A DNA stretch of 64,000 nucleotides from Nannobrachium achirus (lineage: Eukaryota; Chordata; Actinopteri; Myctophiformes; Myctophidae): the NCBI GenBank assembly GCA_963921795.1, contig OY997640.1, positions 53,521,821 to 53,585,820 on the forward strand, given 5' to 3'. Both the position numbers and the translations under genes were made by a program. How positions within the stretch are numbered: position 1 is the stretch's first letter; every line of letters begins with the position of its first letter. Of the stretch, positions 15,080 to 61,531 are shown piece by piece. The notes beneath the pieces were generated by a model. That model was not told where the DNA came from. It did no database searches and saw nothing but the letters and a program-made list of their open reading frames with translations.

Positions 15080-15297
15080 TACAAGCTCTCATCTCCGATC
15101 TACAAGCTCTCAGCGCCTCGCAGTGCGAGACGTTGAGAGCTTGTAGATCTGCTATTTTTGGCTAAAGTTCTTCTCAGAATTGGGATGCGAGGGTTCAAGT
15201 TGTTAATTTGAAAAGAAGTATCCTATCGCACAAAGATTTCGTGCCCCCCCTGTAGTAACTCTGAGGACCCCCTGTTGAAGACCCTTGGGTTAAGACA
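15080..15297 (+). mobile_element. Partial hAT-like copy with hairpin module
   Basis: The right part matches the element at 55023-55440 (GTAGTAACTCTGAGGACCCC and GTTGAAGACCCTTG). A full hairpin module lies at 15097-15159, 170 bp upstream of the TBCK exon at 15466. The left terminus was not found. Confidence 0.6.
15097..15159. repeat. Hairpin module, well-preserved copy
   Basis: GATCTACAAGCTCTCA and its complement GAGAGCTTGTAGATC face each other, followed by TGCTATTTTT. Other copies: 1481-1511 (one arm), 1966-2010, 29798-29870, 34381-34455, 43057-43132, 44601-44677, 48181-48213 (one arm), 55271-55313, 55870-55908 (one arm), 59781-59852 and 61228-61293. Confidence 0.85.
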
Positions 15298-15465
15298 ATT
15301 CCTGGTCTAGGTATACAACCCACCAAGCAGAGACACCCCCCTCTCTCTCTGTTCTGTCTATCTATATATTTCAACTATCTGTGTCTATACGGAAACACAA
15401 TGTAAACATGGACAATGCCAACTGTTATTTTTGAATGTTTTGAGCTTTAACACCAGTGCGTCCAG

Positions 15466-15625
15466 CTTCAACAGGGGACATATTTCTGGCAGCATCAATG
15501 TCCCCTACAGCACCGTGTTCAACTCTGATGATGAAGTGGTCCAGTGTCCTGCAGCTGGACTCCTCCAGAACTTTAGAGGACGAGTCATCGTCGTCATCAG
15601 CCATGCCATGAAGAGAGCTACAACT
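15466..15625 (+). CDS. TBCK: TBCK coding exon, second from last (rhodanese-like domain core)
   Basis: The 160-bp exon holds one base that completes the previous codon plus 53 codons. It reads DFNRGHISGSINVPYS, then the segment LLQNFRGRVIVVISHAMKRA, and ends at ACT|GTAAGG in phase 0. RGHISGSINVP is the typical rhodanese loop before the active-site region. The active-site loop here reads VISHA with no cysteine, so a catalytically inactive rhodanese-like fold is expected, as in the family. Acceptor-like AGs at 15444 and 15456 also exist, but only the AG ending at 15465 gives the family length without extra residues, so it was chosen. The introns on both sides are long (6.3 and 9.2 kb) and filled with repeats. 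Confidence 0.9.
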
Positions 15626-15719
15626 GTAAGGAGAAAAACACAGCACACAAATACATCTGTGAAAATATTAATGTTCAATAGCTGTCATATACACAGTGTC
15701 ATGACTCATGGGCAGGGAT

Positions 15720-15800
<81 letters not shown>

Positions 15801-17264
15801 AATAAATTGCTGTTGAGATGAATTGTTACAGTGATCTGCAATTCTGCATGTTGAAGTGTCCTTCCATTAGAGTGGTTATTATGGTAAAAGTAAACCATTC
15901 TGAAGCAGATTACAGGGGGTGGGGCGGAATACTGGAGGGACATAATAGATCTGTGTTACATTAATGATTCTTAGATGGAATGCATCCCTTGAATACACTT
16001 TCAGTCAGAAGGCAGAAGCTGACCATCTCTTCCTCCTGCTGTTTCACTATTGGATAAAAACTGTGGGGGGAAAAAAAGTCCAGACAGAACTTAATCACTT
16101 CAGCCCTATTTGTTTTTTACTTCTAATGACATGCCCAAAATGGGGACAACAGGGTGAACGTGGTTAGAGAAGTAAAAGAAATCCCTAATGTAGTACTTTG
16201 TCCTCAACCGTAATGTCCTTTATTCATTCATTTTCATATTCAATTCATTTTATCCAAGAGTACACATGAGCATGAGTATATAGCTATGGGATTTGTTGAT
16301 ACCTGGAAGCACTTTTCATCCAGTTATTTATTTTTGAAGGAAATGTGTGTGATATAACAATAATGCCTCATTGATATGCATAGATTTTTATTATCTCTGG
16401 GACTTGTCTCCTTGGAATCTGAGAAAAAGAACACTGTGCTTTTCACAAATCACAGTGTTTGGAGTATAGTGAAAATTGGGGCAACAAACAAAAAAGCCTC
16501 CAGTCAGCAGCTTTCTGTTGGTGAAAACACCTGGCTAATGAGAGAAGTCAGGGGAGGATAGCCAGACACTTTCACGCTAAGCTCATTCAGGCCACATGTA
16601 CTGTAACACAGCTCCACACAACAGTACTACTAATAGAGTAGGAGGGCTAATAGAACTAAGTGAACCTCGAAGAGTTTGAGAGGGCATAACAAGTGTTTCA
16701 AGCGTAACCACTGTCAATCTGGCATCCCTATTTGTCATTATAGGTACAACTAGTTTAAGTATAAAATACACTCAGGATTTTGCTGTGTAGGTCAGACATG
16801 TAGCGGGGACGGGGTGCATTACTAACTCATAATCACAAATATTACTTACTAAATAAAAAGTGCTGTGGTTATTTAGCACATCAACCAGTTTTAGCAAAAC
16901 AAATCGTGTATGAAGAACAGACAGGACTGCTGAGATGAACTCCCACCTACAGTATTCCTAGGAGAATTATTGTCCATGGCATGTCACATAGCCAGTCAGA
17001 CATGAAGGACTGTCCCCTCTCAAATTACTGTGATCACTGACTGAATATAGTGCAACTCCCCTCACACACAACTCTCCCCCCTGAGACATAACTACCCCTA
17101 ACTAATGCTGTTCACACTGCAAAATCCAGAGTGTTCATTTAAGTCAGGGGTTAAATTACAGTCATTGCTGAGGTCTTCCTTGCATTGTCTCCCTAAAGTA
17201 CATCTTTTTAATCCTGTATACAGGACAGGTATAAATGTTTGCTCTTTTTATAAATGATTAATTA

Positions 17265-29630: not shown

Positions 29631-29960
29631 CTCAAACCTTTTCATGTGAAGGACCCCCAAAATTATATGTATTTGGCCACTGACCCCCATCTCAAAATAC
29701 TTAGTTCCAGGGATCCCCCAGAAGCAAAATTTGATTTACGAATGTCCCCTTAAAAAATACATCATTCAAAGATTTGCACACATTTTCACGACTTTTCAAA
29801 AATAGCAGATCTACAAGCTCGCAGTGCGGCACTCGGTGCTGCGCTGTGAGCTTGTATATCTGCTATTTTTCAATAGCTGAAGTATAAAATAATTAAGGCC
29901 CCTCCACCTTGGGCCCTGGTAACTCAGTCCCACTTTTCCCCCCCTTGTGACGCCCCTGGC
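29631..29960 (+). mobile_element. hAT-like fragment with hairpin module
   Basis: It begins CAGTGGTGCTCAAACCTTTT, a hAT-type terminus, and carries a full module at 29798-29870. No matching right terminus was found, so the right limit is a guess. Confidence 0.45.
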
Positions 29961-33916: not shown

Positions 33917-34106
33917 TTTATTCATGGCGTACTGTGCGCAGACGTATGTGGTTGTTCACAACGGGGTGGTTAAGTTGAAGGACTTGTGGGAGGATCATCA
34001 ACAATCAGAGCGCTGGTGTGCCAGAATGAAAGAGTCTGGTCTCCATGGGAAATTTCTCCCTCCTGTTTGTGTTACTTCTTTCTGCCATCTTTCTCTGATC
34101 TGTCTA
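33917..34106 (-). other. NPNT: Candidate NPNT 3' UTR ending at AATAAA (33917-33922)
   Basis: A minus-strand AATAAA lies about 185 bases after the NPNT stop and is the nearest canonical polyadenylation signal. Further minus-strand AATAAA hexamers occur in the next 2 kb, so a longer UTR is equally possible. Confidence 0.35.
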
Positions 34107-34217
34107 TCAAAGTCTCCTCAGATTGTGGTCCTCTGTACAGGTGCCTTTCCTCAGGGTGATGTCATCTACAGCCATCTCTCCACTCCTGCCTCGCCCACGC
34201 TCCCCCTTCAGGATCAC
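34107..34217 (-). CDS. NPNT: NPNT terminal coding exon (end of MAM domain)
   Basis: Nephronectin is a secreted extracellular-matrix ligand of integrin alpha8beta1 with EGF repeats, an RGD linker and a C-terminal MAM domain. On the minus strand the acceptor tgctttttccag precedes 36 codons and TGA. The peptide begins VILKGERGRGRSGEMAVDDI, continues TLRKGTCTED and ends LRRL. GEMAVDDI is the closing MAM strand, and the Cys in KGTC is the final conserved MAM cysteine. It joins the phase-0 donor at 34789 (GLES|VILKGE). The gene is convergent with TBCK, as in human. Confidence 0.93.
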   Translation of the reverse strand: MILKGERGRGRSGEMAVDDITLRKGTCTEDHNLRRL

Positions 34218-34380: not shown

Positions 34381-34455
34381 CGAAAATAGCAGACCTCCAG
34401 AAGCTCACAACGCATCGTGCTGCGACGCGTTGTGAGCTTGGAGGTCGGCTATTGT
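34381..34455. repeat. Hairpin module between NPNT MAM exons
   Basis: Arms CGAAAATAGCAGACCTCCAG and its complement enclose CTCACAACGCATCGTGCTGC. It lies in the 571-bp intron between the last two NPNT coding exons, beside a (GATA)n tract. Confidence 0.8.
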
Positions 34456-34788
34456 CGTTGCTTGATACCACACTGAACTAAGCATAATCAAGTGAATACT
34501 GGAGATGTGGCGTACGGCATGGATTTCTACACAGAGAGGGCTGTTCTTTCGACATAAGATGCTGCATTCAAGTTCAGGAGAGTTTGGACAAGGCTCTCTT
34601 GAATGCTCCCTTCAGGTATGGCATGGAAAGAGAGTATTTGCATTTCTTTCACCATAGTAAAAACTGCATTCGTGATCTGGAGAGGGCACTTTTTACAGAC
34701 AGATAAAAGGGCAGGGGCTCAAACCTCCTTTGATGTCTATGTGTGCACGTGCCTGAGATAGATATGATAATATCATTGTAATACTTAC

Positions 34789-35048
34789 ACTCTCCAGGCC
34801 TGTGCCCCATAGTGTAATTTGGGTATGCCGCCAACCATTGCCCCCTGTCCTTCCCCAGACTGCTGGGCTGTACTGCTGTCCCTTCTTCACAAACACCTGG
34901 AGCATGCCAACGTGGTGCCCCGCCAGCTTGTGGCGGAATGACAGACACAGGTTGCCATCATTCCAGGGCGGCGTCAGTGGGAGGACCAGCCTCGCCCCTC
35001 GCCCACTCCTCTTGTTGCCCACCTCAGGGATGGTGAGATACCGCCCAC
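34789..35048 (-). CDS. NPNT: NPNT coding exon (main part of MAM domain)
   Basis: This 260-bp exon lies between acceptor cctctacag and donor AGT|GTAAGT and begins in phase 1, completing a Gly codon to read GGRYLTIPEVGN. It contains RGARLVLPLTPP, LCLSFRHKLAGHHVG, LQVFVKKGQQ and GWRHTQITLWG, the beta-sandwich strands typical of MAM domains, including the conserved Cys in NLCLSF. The length and both phases agree with the neighbouring exons. The match to NPNT is much closer than to the paralogue EGFL6, and the TBCK neighbour supports NPNT. Confidence 0.93.
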
Positions 35049-35222
35049 CTGTAGAGGAAAGTACAATACACTAGGTTCAAATGAAAGGATAATACTCCAT
35101 CCTGTTTATTTTTTTATTTTTTTGGTTAAAGATAGAAATGGTGAACCAATGTTTTATTCAAAACTGTTAATTAAATGTGTCCGCTGAGATGATTCACTTT
35201 TGGGTGAAAAAGGTCATAATTA

Positions 35223-35501
35223 CAGTATTTTCTGGACTATAAGGCGCACCTGACTATAAGGCGCACTGTCAATGAATGGTCTATTTTCAAACTGTTTTCA
35301 TATATAAGGCGCACCTGACTATAAGGCGCACATAATAGACGCTACCGTTGCGTTATGCATCCAACAGATGGAGCTGTGCTAAAGGGAATGTCAATGTCAA
35401 TGAATGATCCATATATAAGGCGCACTGGACTATAAGGCGCACTGTAGTTTTTTGAGAAAATTAAAGGCTTTTAAGTGCGCCTTATAGTCCAGAAAATACG
35501 G
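35223..35501 (+). mobile_element. Mariner-type MITE with repeated ACTATAAGGCGCAC
   Basis: Inverted ends CAGTATTTTCTGGACTATAA and its near reverse complement are bounded by TA on each side (35221-35222, 35502-35503). The motif ACTATAAGGCGCAC recurs about five times in both orientations. No transposase. It lies 170 bp from the NPNT MAM exon. Confidence 0.75.
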
Positions 35502-44039: not shown

Positions 44040-44935
44040 GTGTGTGTCTGTCGTGCGATTGCGTGTGGTGCGTGCGTGCGCTCTGCACCGCACGGAGCTG
44101 CAGGCAGACACGAGAGGCAGGCATAAGACTTTTCTCCCTTGCTGAACACTGTAGCCTAAATCAACCTGCTGCTCCATCAAACTTCAAGAAACGACTAATT
44201 AAAGTTTATCCTACTTGTTTTGACGTCTCCACTGCACTCCGTTTGAAACGTTGCCGTTCAAAGCAAACGAGCACCTCCGACAAAAGTAGCACGCAGTATT
44301 CCATGGATCAGATAGGAACAGCACTTGAACGCATAACATTTGAATCCCTTAAATCCCTTTAGAGAGCAAAACCACATGAATAAACCTGAGTTTTGCTTTA
44401 GCAGTGAGCTATATCCTTATCAATGACATAGGTCATGGGGTAATTATTTTTGCCTTGAAGTAGCCTAATTAGTAGGTAATTAAATGGCAGATATTTGACA
44501 AAGGTTTGCTTTTTTGCCTTGAAAATAATGAAAGGCAGTCAAAAGTCTGTTTTGCATTTCTCAATTCACTCAAGGACCCTTAAATTCGTGTTTTGACTAC
44601 TTTGAAAATAGCAGATATACACACATACTGTAGCCTACGTCTCTTTAGTGATTGTGAGCTTGTAGATTGTCTATTTCCAAATAGCCAGTGTACTGTATAT
44701 TAATAAAGTGGTTCAATAGTTATCAATGTTTATATTTCACAAGTTCCCGCACATTTCGCATGGTTTCGCATTTTCACCGCATAAATTCACAGAAAAACCC
44801 TGCATAATTCACCCCGCATAATCAAGGATTTTTGCCTGCAAAATCAAGGATTTTAACCCGCAAAATTAAGGATTTTAACCCGCAAAATCAAGGATTTTAA
44901 CCCGCATAATCAAGGATTTTTTTCTGGAGGGTCTA
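43880..44935 (+). mobile_element. 1.06-kb DNA element with TAGACCCTCCAG ends
   Basis: Left TAGACCCTCCAGAAAAA and right reverse complement TAGACCCTCCAGAAAAA are flanked by the 6-bp repeat TTTGAT (43874-43879, 44936-44941). It contains (TG)n at 43991-44050, a hairpin module at 44601-44677 and a subterminal minisatellite at 44813-44928. Confidence 0.75.
44813..44928. repeat. Minisatellite in the element's right subterminal region
   Basis: About five copies of a 22-23-bp unit containing ATCAAGGATTTTAACCCGCA, with CATAATC/CAAAATC variants. Confidence 0.8.
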
Positions 44936-45508: not shown

Positions 45509-45598
45509 CTGGGTCGTCCTTTGATTCTTCAGCTGTGTTGCCCAGTTCAATATCAAAGTCAATCCCCAGGACTGTGTTCTGGCCGTGGTTCCGAGGGA
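45509..45598 (-). CDS. NPNT: NPNT coding exon (acidic spacer between RGD and MAM)
   Basis: A 90-bp phase 1-1 exon follows acceptor ctctcttcag and ends GACCCAG|GTAAGC. It reads PRNHGQNTVLGIDFDIELG, then NTAEESKDDP. With the previous exon the junction is RGDVH|I-PRNHG, close to the vertebrate NPNT arrangement in which RGDVxIPR is followed by an acidic stretch ending KDDP. This acidic region C-terminal to RGD is known in NPNT to hold a synergistic integrin alpha8-binding motif (LFEIFEIE-type in mammals). Here the corresponding stretch is LGIDFDIELG, which keeps the alternating hydrophobic/acidic pattern. Confidence 0.9.
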
Positions 45599-47860: not shown

Positions 47861-48323
47861 TAGGGCATTAACGACTTGTGATTTTTGCAAGTCGACTTGA
47901 CTCAGTAAAAGGTTTAGTTGAAGTCGACTTTATCGTTTGATGACGTCGTCACATCACACACACTACCCCCCAATTATTTTGGGGGGTCCCCAGATGATTA
48001 ACTTAATGTGAAACATTGTTTTCTCACTCAACTGTAAACAAACCAACATAACGTTTAAGTGCATAGAGGGTATCTGTACATTTCTAAATTGACAATTTAA
48101 GGACTTTTTAATACCTCTAAAATGACAAATGAAACATTGTCAAAATTCTCAAATATATAGAGGCAGAAATTGTAATGCGAGGCATTGTGAGCATGTAGAT
48201 CGGCTATTTTCACAATAGAAAGTATTATTATTATTTTTTTAAACTTTGACTTTCTCTGGTGGGAGTCGACTTGTGTAATGAAGTTGACTAAGTCGACTTG
48301 TCGACTTTTTCGTTAATACCCTA
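47861..48323 (+). mobile_element. hAT-like MITE with GTCGACTT blocks
   Basis: Inverted ends TAGGGCATTAACGA and TCGTTAATACCCTA (one extra base) are flanked by GTGTACAC/GTGGACAC (8 bp, one mismatch). Subterminal AAGTCGACTT repeats occur at both ends. One hairpin-module arm lies at 48181-48213. Confidence 0.75.
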
Positions 48324-55487: not shown

Positions 55488-55651
55488 TGTGGACATCTCC
55501 TCTCTGCTTGGTCACCTCCTTCTGGATGGAGTTGTCTACAGGGGTGACGGGGTCGGGCTGAGGAGGCCGTCTTGTGGGTGGCGGGGGTGGAGTGATGGGC
55601 GGCAGGCGTCTGGGGGGGACGTAGGGCTTACGCGTGGGCACCGCTGGTCTC
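55488..55651 (-). CDS. NPNT: NPNT coding exon carrying the RGD integrin-binding site
   Basis: It reads RPAVPTRKPYVPPRRLPP, then a Pro-rich stretch, PVDNSIQKEVTKQ, and RGDVH, ending A|GTAAGA in phase 1. RGD is encoded at 55495-55503 on the minus strand. The upstream boundary is unusual: the apparent acceptor CCACCAG|G at 55652 lies in an 8-bp target-site duplication next to a hAT-like insertion. Joining to position 56158 rebuilds the repeat VPTRRPAVPTRRPAVPTR exactly in frame. Without splicing, the reading frame hits TAG at 56154-56156. Confidence is high that this is NPNT coding sequence and moderate for the exact 5' boundary. Confidence 0.85.
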
Positions 55652-56157
55652 CTGGTGGCAGTGTTGGTTTTGACAGCAAATTTGGATTTAGTTTAGGTCA
55701 TAGTCTATTATTCAATAAAATGTCGTTTCAGTCCTATTTTAGTCGTCTGACATGTTTCAGTTTTAGTCGACTAAATATCCTAAGATTTTAGTCGACTAAA
55801 TCTACAGTTTATTTTGTTGACAAAAATGTATTTTGGCGGGCCTTGAAGGTGATTTTCATTTTACACTTGGTTGCGACGCGTTGTGAGCTTGTAGATCGGC
55901 TACTTTCAAGGAGCAACACCCAAGCGCAACAAAACATAAAATGTACATGTCTTTTAGTTCTACTGGATCTCTTCTCTACTAGACCCTCCCTAACATTTGA
56001 GTCCAGTTCTTATATGGATAATATTGTCAATATATTTGTCTTAGTTTTAGTCATCGTAGCCTAGTTTTTGTTTAGTTTTTATTTAGTTTTCGCCAGTGAA
56101 AAAAGGTGGTTGACAACATTTTCTGCCACCGTTTTTAGTCAACAAAATCAACACTAC
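55652..56157 (-). other. NPNT: Apparent transposon-derived intron of NPNT
   Basis: These 506 bases equal the 498-bp hAT-like element plus one 8-bp copy of its target duplication. On the minus strand the interval begins GTAGTG and ends CCACCAG, so it has GT-AG ends. Removal leaves CCC ACC AGG AGA CCA in frame. The tract before the AG is only weakly pyrimidine-rich. Splicing is inferred, not observed. Confidence 0.6.
55659..56156 (+). mobile_element. Non-autonomous hAT-like element inside an NPNT exon
   Basis: The ends are imperfect inverted repeats: left CAGTGTTGGTTTTG, right (reverse complement) TAGTGTTGATTTTG. The element is flanked by exact 8-bp duplications CCTGGTGG at 55651-55658 and 56157-56164, the length typical of hAT insertions. 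The interior is rich in TTTTAGTC/GACTAAA and carries one arm of the shared hairpin module at 55870-55908. No transposase is encoded. Confidence 0.85.
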
Positions 56158-56464
56158 CTGGTGGGCACCGCTGGTCTCCTGGTGGGCACCAAGGGCCTTC
56201 GGGTGGGGATAGACGGCTTGCGTGGGGCGGGCGTTGCTCTCCTCGGAGGGAGCGTTGGTGCTTTAGTTGTGGTTGTTGCAGCAGTAGTAGTTGTAGTAGT
56301 TGTGGGTGTTGTGGTAGTTTTGGGGGGGATTCTTTTGGCAGTCAGAGGCGGGCGGATGGTGGTGGTTGTTCTCCTGTGGTCAGTGTCAGGAATGTGGTTG
56401 TGGTGGTTTGGAGGTTCCCATGGCTTCCCTGGCCGTGGCGGATGGATGGACACCTTAGGAATAG
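56158..56464 (-). CDS. NPNT: NPNT coding exon (Thr/Pro-rich linker)
   Basis: The acceptor ttatctctctcag is followed by two bases completing a Pro codon and about 101 codons. It opens IPKVSIHPPRPGKPWEPP, close to the YIPKV start of the vertebrate NPNT linker, then a mucin-like Thr-rich run (about 56225-56320), then basic proline repeats (KPSIPTRRPLVPTRRPAVPTR type). It ends CCACCAG|GTAGTG at 56158, where the hAT-like element begins. Low-complexity Thr/Pro sequence suggests an O-glycosylated spacer between the EGF repeats and the RGD site. The GT of the donor uses one base of the target duplication and the first base of the element. Confidence 0.85.
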
Positions 56465-58276: not shown

Positions 58277-58399
58277 GTTTGCAGTCGTGGCCCGTCCCCC
58301 TGTAGCCGTCTTTACATTTGCACTTGTATGAGCCAGGCGTGTTGTAGCAGGTGGCAAAGCTGCCACAGTGGCTCTGGCCTGTAGAGCACTCGTCCACGT
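58277..58399 (-). CDS. NPNT: NPNT coding exon (EGF repeat, last of the array)
   Basis: A 123-bp symmetric phase 1-1 exon lies between acceptor ctatctttcag and donor AAAC|GTAAGA. It reads DVDECSTGQSHCGSFATCYN, then TPGSYKCKCKDGYRGTGHDC. It has all six EGF cysteines, the calcium-binding DVDEC start and the aromatic GSYKC consensus. It corresponds to the EGF repeat just before the linker in NPNT, and the junction reads HDCK|PIPKVS. EGF repeats coded by single symmetric exons are typical of this family. Confidence 0.93.
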
Positions 58400-59575
58400 C
58401 TGAAAGATAGTCAAAACACATACAGCATGATTCAGAGAGTGTGCGTGTGTGTGCATGCATGTTTTTATGTAAATGAAGGAAAAAGAAAACCGTAAGCGTG
58501 CATGTGTACACAATATCTGAGTGATTTTAGTTCCTCACAGTGTAAAAACTATTCTTTTTAGAGCAATTTCTAGTACACTCTCAGAGGACTGTTCTGTGTA
58601 CCCAGTCTACCCACTGCAATGTCCATCTCTCCATCTTGTTTGTTCATGTTAATGTACACAGGACTGTGTAGTATGTGTGCATGTGTCAAAGAGCTTCAAA
58701 CAACACTGCAGCGCATTATCGAAGGCTAATTGCTTCCCATCCACTTCAGCTGTAGTAGAGAGTAGGCAGTGCACTTCATGGGCTGTTTGTTGTGAGTGCA
58801 GCTGTTCGTTAAATAAGAGAGATCTCTCCAACTGTCAGAACGGTTTCATTATGAGAGTTTCCTTGTCAAATCCTCCCAGGGATAACAGAAACCAAAGGGA
58901 TTCAACAAGGTTTTTCTGCGGTTTCTGCCTCATTCTAAAATGAACACTGAGATTTCAGTCTGCCATATGCTGTTTACTGAGAAGTATTCAAATAAAACTC
59001 AGGGCATACTGAAAAGCATATACTGGCGGACTACCAAAAGCCATTTTTAGACGACAATAGGATTACATGCTTCCTATGGTGCATTGGTGCCCATATTTGT
59101 TCATGTGTCTACTGCAGTTGTGGTATTTTTCTCTTTAACCCATTTAGAAGGTTTTTTTTTTAAACGTACCTTGCTATATAATGTAGCTAAAATCTAAAAT
59201 GGCACAGATGATTTCCCGGATTGAATGGGGTAAAACCTAGTTTATTTGTGAAACTGATAAATAATTAAGAAATACTACGTTAGATCCATTGATCCAAGAC
59301 AGAACACAATCGATTGATTGATCATTACAATAAATATGCTCTGATAAATGTTCAGCCCATGCTGTGTTAAGTGGTCAGATGAATGGGCTGTGAACGCTTT
59401 AGAGATTTTCAAGTGGGCCTTGACACAGAAAAGTTTGGGAACCACTGGTCTGCTGTATGTCAATAGACAGAGAGAGTAGTAGTAATGAGTAATGATGAGT
59501 AATGAGTAATGCGCTTGTGGGGTTTGAGAATGAGTGTGAGAGACAATGTACTGTATGCACACACCTGCACATGAG

Positions 59576-60041
59576 CAGTGGTGTAAAGTAACTACGTTAC
59601 TCAAGTACTTACTCCAGTACTTACTTACTTGAGTAAATGTAATGTAAGTACAGTTTTGAGGTATTTCTACTTTACTGGAGTATTTCCATTTTCTTTACTT
59701 TTACTTCTACCCCACTACATCTCTGCACTTTTAAATTTTTAGCTCAGTTACTAGTTACTATATACAGTACATTTCGGCCATTTGAAAATAGACAATCTAT
59801 ACAAATTGTCGCCATGCAACGTATTGTGAGCTTATAGATCATCTATTTTCAAAAAACTTGTGAAAACTTGTGAAAATACTTGTGAAATACTTTTACGTTT
59901 GATACTTTAAGCACATTTTGATGCCAATACTTTTGTACTTTTACTCAAGTACATTTTGATTTAATACCAGACTTTCTACATTGCAGCATTGATACTTTTA
60001 CGTTTTTAAGTAAAAAACGACTTTAACTTTTTCCACCACTG
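59576..60041 (+). mobile_element. hAT-like MITE of the GTAAAGTAAC family (466 bp)
   Basis: Ends CAGTGGTGTAAAGTAACT and AGTTTTT-like TTTTTCCACCACTG are flanked by exact 8-bp repeats CACATGAG (59568-59575, 60042-60049). The interior has ACTTTTAC/CAAGTACT blocks and a hairpin module at 59781-59852. Confidence 0.85.
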
Positions 60042-60311: not shown

Positions 60312-60446
60312 CTATGCACTGGTATTTGCCGTTGATGTATTGCAGGTCGAAGCCTTCGTGGCACTTGCAAATGTAGCTCCCGAAGGTGTTGATGCATTTC
60401 CTGAAGCGGGGGCACACCGCTATGCCTGCGGCACACTCGTCCACAT
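60312..60446 (-). CDS. NPNT: NPNT coding exon (EGF repeat, second from last)
   Basis: A 135-bp phase 1-1 exon follows acceptor ccatctttcag and ends TGCATAG|GTACTG. It reads [20 protein letters not shown], then [20 protein letters not shown], then KYQCI. It is a calcium-binding-type EGF repeat with six cysteines. CPRFRKC and [10 protein letters not shown] are diagnostic for NPNT. It joins the next repeat as QCI|DVDEC. The earlier EGF repeats and the signal peptide are not in the remaining 3.5 kb and must lie beyond the window. Confidence 0.93.
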
Positions 60447-61227
60447 CTGAAAGATGGAACAGGGATTTTAAAACATATATGTTTAATTTGCAGACCAAGC
60501 CATTGCATAAATTGAGATTTTTAAATGATGGGCTTGTAGTACTTAAGGTGCTCTAAACCAGAGCATCTCATGTATACAACCAAAAGTAATGGAAATATCC
60601 AATCTACAAGCTCTCAACAGATCACACACACTGTAGCGCACGCAATTATTATTATTACTACTACTTTTTATTTATCTCTTTATTAAATTAATTGTATTTA
60701 TTATTATTTAATTTTTTTTAAGATCTTCACCTATGACCAGAAATAGAGGGGCCAGGTTGAAATTGGTTCTGCCCAACAGCGACAGTGGACTGATATTCCT
60801 TTATGCACAAAGCTAGTTTTGTATTCAGCTCTAGTATTTGGAACCAATTCACTTCACTGTGGCCTGTTCTTTGAAGGCCTGTTATGATCACCTCTGCAGG
60901 CACAAGGGTATTAATATTTAGAACACAACTGGCTCACATGCAGAGGTGCTATATTGCTGAAAAGTACATTACAGTACATTAATGTATGCACTTCTGCAGT
61001 CTGAGGAGCTACTGTACGCAGCCCTCCAATTATTTTTAGTTTAGTTTTATTTATGCTCACTGAGTTGACAGAATACACCTGCATCTTGAATCATGGTTAC
61101 ACATCATACTGTATACAGTACGTGCTCATCTGGCACAGCCACAGACCCTTTGGTTCAATTTATCCCTCTTAGAGTTACATGTACATTTTTGATTTCGTTA
61201 GATTGTCCTGTGCACAGTGGTCTACTG

Positions 61228-61531
61228 CAGATCTACAAGCTCACAATGCCTCACGTTGCGAGGCGTTGTGAGCATGTAGATCAGCTATTTTCACAATTTC
61301 TGCATCTAATATTTGACAATTTGGCCAATGTTTATTTTCTCATTTTAGAGGCTTAAAAAGTCATTATATTGTCACTTAAGAAATGTGCTATACACTTAAA
61401 ACTCATGTCGGTTTGTTTACAATGTTGAAATGTTGAAACAATGTTACACATAAAGTTAATCATCTTGGGACCCCCCCAAAATAATTTGGAGACCCCCCTG
61501 GGGGTCCTGACCCACAGGTTGAGAACCACTG
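61228..61531 (+). mobile_element. hAT-like fragment opening with the hairpin module
   Basis: The 8-bp repeat GTCTACTG lies at 61220-61227 and 61532-61539. The right end is GGTTGAGAACCACTG. The left end begins directly with the hairpin module (61228-61293) instead of the expected terminal repeat. Confidence 0.65.

Follow-up and report, generated by a model that had tools for sequence, protein, structure and literature searches.

An apparently old hAT-type insert in the linker exon of a Nannobrachium achirus NPNT-type gene is probably removed by splicing

How can a gene keep its coding sequence open when a transposable element with a stop codon in its first three bases lies inside one of its exons? 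This question is raised by a locus within a 64,000-nucleotide stretch of Nannobrachium achirus DNA (the window, that is, the whole stretch analysed). The answer for which we argue, at a probability of about 70%, is that an old hAT-type insert in the linker exon of an NPNT-type gene would be removed by the spliceosome as an intron of 506 or 548 nt.

The insert and its host gene

Direct reading of the minus strand confirmed what an earlier sequence-only reading had claimed of the insert itself: a 498-bp element with inverted ends lies in coding sequence at 55659-56156, within the linker exon of a fish NPNT-type gene, between exact 8-bp duplications of CCACCAGG (56164-56157 and 55658-55651). On the coding strand the order is CCCACCAG|G, then TAGTGTTG...CAACACTG, then CCACCAG|GAGACC: the exon, which runs from 56464 to 55488, is broken after CCCACCAGG by the 498 bp, and the second CCACCAGG opens its remainder. 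The terminal inverted repeat of the element is 88% complementary, with arms of 16 nt including flank, and the GC content is 35% in the insert and 59% and 66% in the exon parts. The same reading had held that removal of 506 bp restores the frame, and this is the case: the linker exon is then 471 nt (157 codons) long, open and in frame, has phase 1 at both ends and finishes with an RGD motif. When the insert is retained, the frame reads ...AVPTR*C*FC*, and the TAG that had been predicted in the first codon of the element is indeed formed by its first three bases.

55488..56464, minus strand: NPNT-type linker exon, 977 nt with the insert and 471 nt without; Pro/Thr-rich, ends QRGDVH
55659..56156, minus strand: 498-bp element, assigned by sequence to the hAT-type non-autonomous class; reads TAGTGTTGATTTTGTTGAC...GTCAAAACCAACACTG in the orientation of the gene and has family copies
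56157..56164, minus strand: 8-bp target-site duplication, upstream copy (CCACCAGG), whose final G at 56157 supplies the G of the candidate 5' GT
55651..55658, minus strand: downstream CCACCAGG copy; gives the candidate 3' AG (55653-55652), with the exon restarting at 55651
56154..56156, minus strand: TAG that is in frame upon insert retention, from sequence reading
56160..56207, minus strand: 21-bp tandem repeat within the linker, intact portion (2.3 copies); the insertion splits the unit that follows, 55638-55658
55495..55503, minus strand: RGD integrin-binding motif at the end of the linker exon
58281..58400, minus strand: EGF-like domain exon just upstream of the linker (EGF_CA, E 3.5e-9)
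60346..60447, minus strand: EGF-like domain exon (EGF_CA, E 1.2e-9)
34788..35048, minus strand: downstream MAM domain exon (MAM, E 3.6e-7)
34106..34217, minus strand: last coding exon, with the end of the MAM domain and the stop TGA (MAM piece, E 0.0024, under the curated cut-off)

Nephronectin (NPNT) is described in an excerpt of PMC7956348 as a protein of EGF repeats, a Pro-rich linker with RGD and an LFEIFEIER-like motif, and a MAM domain. Judged by its sequence, the minus-strand gene fits this description: it has two EGF_CA exons, the RGD linker, a DFDIELGNTAEESKDDPG segment near 45518 that we read as a degenerate form of the LFEIFEIER-like motif, and the MAM domain. Two of the five expected EGF repeats were found in the window, with just a weak cEGF match, under the cut-off, farther upstream. 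The preference for NPNT over EGFL6 leans partly on synteny, in that we take TBCK to be a neighbour of NPNT; the plus-strand reading frame at 15311-15805 presumably resembles the rhodanese part of TBCK, and a Pfam scan at 15311-15805 gave no rhodanese match. C14 carries another gene of the NPNT/EGFL6 type (G000:C14:20266489-20270337; loci L092, L089 and L090), which has an FEIE motif and MAM pieces and shares 58% identity with the NPNT-type gene across part of MAM. Its Thr-rich linker frame is open over 4415-5593 of L092 and ends RGDVHS|GTAAGA, and from this reading the paralogous linker exon is undivided at least over that interval. The two linkers align at the RGD end only.

Element family and target-site duplication

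The linker exon has a 21-bp tandem repeat, and CCACCAGG is therefore present once more upstream. As a result of this context, the direct repeat around the insert is in reality 25 nt long, and the 25-nt units on either side are identical. The 8 bp are read as a target-site duplication, beyond mere tandem repeat, because other copies of the element show the same duplication at the same ends. When the 1.66-Gb genome (G000) was searched with the element, 40 of 5,206 first-look candidates were scored, and the 39 places besides the NPNT locus were fetched. With an end shift of up to 2 bases allowed, the duplication is perfect (8/8) in 16 of the 39 related copies and at least 7/8 in 20 of them, and 14 of the 16 perfect cases need no shift. 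For random placements in the same loci, 0.05% reach 8/8 and 1.05% at least 7/8 (7,800 trials).

These copies bear on several other origins of the repeat. A tandem repeat mistaken for a duplication is ruled out by the recurrence of the ends and of the 8-bp length at other loci, and a chance repeat by the duplications across the family. An assembly artefact is unlikely, with no other copy found close enough to the NPNT copy for misplacement. An ancient vertebrate intron later filled by an element is not favoured, given that the element and its duplication directly abut what reads as coding sequence. Neither an empty allele nor a retrocopy or empty-site paralogue was found in this assembly, where both of the two scored candidates are the two halves of the NPNT locus.

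The family consensus ends in CAGTGTTGATTTCGTCGAC (CAGTGTTG...) and ...CAACACTG, and the NPNT copy in TAGTG...CACTG. Terminal inverted repeats of hAT elements are of the YARNG type, which both the consensus ends and the NPNT copy have, and the 8-bp duplication typical of hAT elements is found at 8/8 at the NPNT locus as well as in the 16 related copies. Genome-wide, the exact 24-nt end pattern occurs at 2,905 sites starting with C and 194 starting with T, and control matches are zero. The element also has the features of a MITE: it is 498 bp long, it carries stops in the read-through frame, and those 2,905 and 194 exact ends are present in the genome. By sequence, the NPNT insert is thus a hAT-type non-autonomous element, an assignment made because 16 of 39 related copies have perfect 8-bp duplications; matching ends number in the thousands, and the hAT-like character given to it earlier holds. 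For the PF05699 (hAT dimerisation) profile the genome has 1,653 candidates; 150 were scored, and every one of them exceeds the cut-off, none of these domains being matched to the ends of the element. Some of these candidates lie in frames of over 600 aa, and hAT transposases may, on this evidence, still be active in this fish. Scans of viral contigs for the element gave 0 matches.

At least 24 of the 194 T-type sites belong to one array on C10. These 24 ends (G000:C10:10116183-12004123) are on one strand, about 14 to 135 kb apart within 1.9 Mb, which suggests a large tandem segmental array.

Splice sites, age and the open coding sequence

The insert has the anatomy of a transposon-born intron: it lies within an exon, is flanked by a duplication, offers GT and AG, and leaves the frame intact upon removal. 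To reach this state, a hAT-type non-autonomous element would have entered the repeat-rich linker exon in the TAGTG...CACTG orientation and duplicated CCACCAGG. The donor GT would consist of the last G of the upstream duplication and the element's first base, T; that splice dinucleotides arise from duplication and element end had been noted earlier, and the GT and AG are read directly. The 3' AG could be that of the downstream duplication, giving a 506-nt intron and an unchanged protein, or an AG 42 nt farther on, giving a 548-nt intron and a protein with 14 residues fewer and the frame kept.

55652..56157, minus strand: candidate 506-nt intron, GT...AG, exact frame restoration; second-best of 18 in-frame, stop-free GT/AG pairs
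55610..56157, minus strand: alternative 548-nt intron with the same donor, acceptor CCCTACGTCCCCCCCAG|ACG and exon restart at 55609; 14 aa shorter; best of the 18 pairs

Splice sites were scored with a Shapiro-Senapathy-type weight matrix, whose weights were not fitted to this fish. Among 39 GTs in exon plus insert, the donor CAG|GTAGTG ranks third. The native acceptor of the linker exon is TCTCTCTCAG|CTA and its native donor ACA|GTAAGA; three native acceptors of this gene score 7.0-8.0. The acceptor in the duplication scores -1.35 (rank 10 of 60 AGs), and the AG with restart at 55609 scores 3.27 (rank 2 of 60, behind the exon's own acceptor). The claim that the duplication supplies the 3' splice site is consequently left in part: the AG is present and the frame exact, but a better in-frame AG lies 42 nt downstream. 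Use of this stronger acceptor, whether exclusively or beside the duplication AG, would shorten the linker by 14 residues and is a substantial minority possibility, consistent with a pair score sum of 4.06 against -0.56 for the exact pair. Against it, the duplication AG comes first, after a 53-nt AG-free stretch, and the first AG met downstream of a branch point is often the one chosen by scanning; the matrix, moreover, was not trained on this species. No yTnAy branch motif was found at the usual distance from the duplication AG, and the nearest candidates are 47-65 nt upstream. Splicing from the CAG|GTAGTG donor, with an intron of 506 or 548 nt, is the likely outcome predicted from these sites.

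The donor may also have been improved after insertion. Because C is the usual end base of the family, the insertion would first have given a GC-AG intron (CAG|GCAGTG ... CCACCAG|G), and a change of the element's first base from C to T would then have converted the GC donor to GT; the NPNT copy carries the minority end base T, and this T makes the GT. A fuller version, in which this two-step birth was followed by long fixation in an extracellular-matrix gene, and two in-frame acceptors 42 nt apart now determine how long a linker precedes the RGD, is put forward tentatively, as a somewhat unlikely whole.

How long the insert has been in place was estimated from its divergence. After 19 of the 39 copies were dropped (bad ends, length outside 440-560 bp, or duplication below 6/8), 20 full-length copies were left. 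The NPNT copy differs from the consensus of these 20 at 56 of 466 non-CpG sites (K2P 0.131); the other copies lie at 0.065-0.123, yet the consensus was built from them. The end branch of the NPNT copy, 0.136, is the longest of 21 full-length copies (median 0.048), and the copy is without a close sister: the nearest of the 20 is 16.9% away, and 47 of 67 NPNT-copy differences are common to at most one other copy. The insertion is therefore not the clear recent case that it had been taken for, and is probably old as judged by sequence divergence. At fish substitution rates of about 0.25-1% per million years, its age would be roughly 10-50 million years, uncalibrated. One observation counts against great age: the 25-nt units are identical, and by hand arithmetic an insertion of such age would leave them so with a chance of about 15-26%.

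Since hAT transposase domains are present in the genome, an old copy may instead have moved late, from a source that has since been lost. If so, the insertion would be recent, made by an already diverged element and possibly polymorphic, and splicing would not yet have come under selection's test. Such an event agrees with the identity of the two duplications and of the two flanking 25-nt units, but we consider it unlikely, since the genome searches gave no near-identical source or sister: the best full-length match is 78% with the whole element as query (40 scored of 5,206 candidates) and 84% with its first 170 bp, where nothing exceeds 85% (40 scored of 1,822). The terminal inverted repeat of the NPNT copy, moreover, has decayed CpGs.

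Removal by splicing is inferred because the coding sequence on both sides is open though the element is heavily diverged. Open frames and canonical splice sites are found in both halves of the linker, in the MAM exons and in the last coding exon; had the insert stayed unspliced for so long, the downstream coding sequence should have decayed. In a neutral simulation at substitution levels of 0.095 and 0.12, with frameshift rates taken from the other copies, the linker half downstream of the insert stays open with a chance of 0.04-0.08, the upstream half with 0.004-0.012 and the MAM exon with 0.004-0.013. The proposal that the fish tolerates the insert by splicing it out thus gains indirect support from sequence.

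The same data weigh on two other fates of the transcript. The insertion might have broken the gene, its transcripts ending at the TAG or being degraded, with the paralogue on C14 taking over the function. This is quite unlikely: the in-frame stop, the weak acceptor of the duplication and the NPNT/EGFL6-type paralogue on C14 agree with it, but the intactness of the exons just listed would hardly arise neutrally if the insertion is as old as its private branch. The paralogue makes a loss more tolerable without explaining why the NPNT copy is intact. Alternatively, the whole linker exon might be skipped, so that the protein would lack the RGD and its EGF repeats would run directly into the C-terminal part. 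Such skipping would be in frame, the exon having 471 coding nt and symmetric phase (1-1), and the 977 nt that the exon measures with the insert is long for exon definition. We regard it as very unlikely, given that both halves and the RGD have been kept open, for which the product of two simulated chances is about 0.0002-0.001. Splicing of the insert from within the exon is accordingly left as the reading that we prefer.

Comparison with known systems and other repeats of the window

Vertebrate intron gain is considered very rare, and the source sequence of a new intron can seldom be named; the path from transposon to intron is a route of intron birth rarely caught in vertebrates. Maize Ds elements belong to the hAT superfamily. 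Titles cited in PMC3260210 point to Ds elements that are spliced as introns (adh1-Fm335, wx and sh2-m1), and one of them describes an intron synthesised de novo by Dissociation. The likeness is that of a hAT-superfamily non-autonomous element in an exon that is removed by splicing, as is predicted here; the plant cases differ in being young mutant alleles with RNA proof, whereas the present one is an apparently old vertebrate insertion known from sequence alone.

Another case is the notothenioid slc26a2 gene, whose introns 3 and 5 are derived, in the excerpted text of a 2025 Sci Rep paper (PMC12357937), from repeated transposon-like elements in coding exons. Both cases concern fish and coding-exon introns from transposon-like elements, with the GT and AG of slc26a2 in direct and inverted repeats. 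According to the same excerpt, NTE-1 of slc26a2 has 4-nt direct repeats and ends tgt/aca, belongs to another family and is common to five species; the NPNT insert is hAT-type, has 8-bp duplications and is known from one genome.

Like the introners of a PNAS 2022 paper (PMC9860276, in excerpt), the NPNT insert combines a DNA-transposon insertion, splice sites that are part duplication and part element, and a kept frame. Unlike introners, which make many introns per genome in that excerpt, 1 of 25 distinct duplicated copies examined here is in coding sequence. Among 76 locus entries, 27 have a duplication of at least 7/8 (25 distinct places), and in this small sample only NPNT is in recognisable coding sequence; four of the next-longest were read by eye, and some of the entries had flanks of about 200 bp. 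Of the animals among the 3,325 genomes surveyed in that paper, two groups alone are reported to have introners, and vertebrates are reported to show no gain pattern. The protosplice-site model, as given in part of a review (PMC3443670), likewise has a duplicated AG|G(T) supply both splice sites; there the duplication gives all of AGGT, and here it gives AGG and the element gives the T. Work on how human genes gained introns across the vertebrates stresses intronization (PMC12124190), and for domesticated genes it is reported that new introns have no source that could be identified (PMC3257199). A hAT-born vertebrate intron was not found in the open-licence PMC literature searched, subscription papers being outside this scope.

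The NPNT case is the same kind of event as the Ds introns, the introners, the AGGT duplication model and notothenioid slc26a2, with an unusually legible anatomy: source family, insertion site, duplication, frame and donor-completing base can all be read. This makes the steps of insertion, tolerance, splice-site improvement and fixation testable. If true, it would add a vertebrate hAT case to the plant Ds cases and the notothenioid one.

The window also holds other repeats. A dispersed short palindrome, AGATCTACAAGCTCACAACGC ... GCGTTGTGAGCTTGTAGATC, occurs at 61227-61293, 15095-15158, 34382-34451 and 29799-29869, and again at 48176-48212, 1481-1510, 59815-59852 and 44652-44680. A half-copy lies within the element at 55870-55908, and one arm belongs to the hAT-type consensus. 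A region with inverted GCGCCTTATAGTC motifs, at 35220-35484 on the minus strand, has the look of another mobile element.
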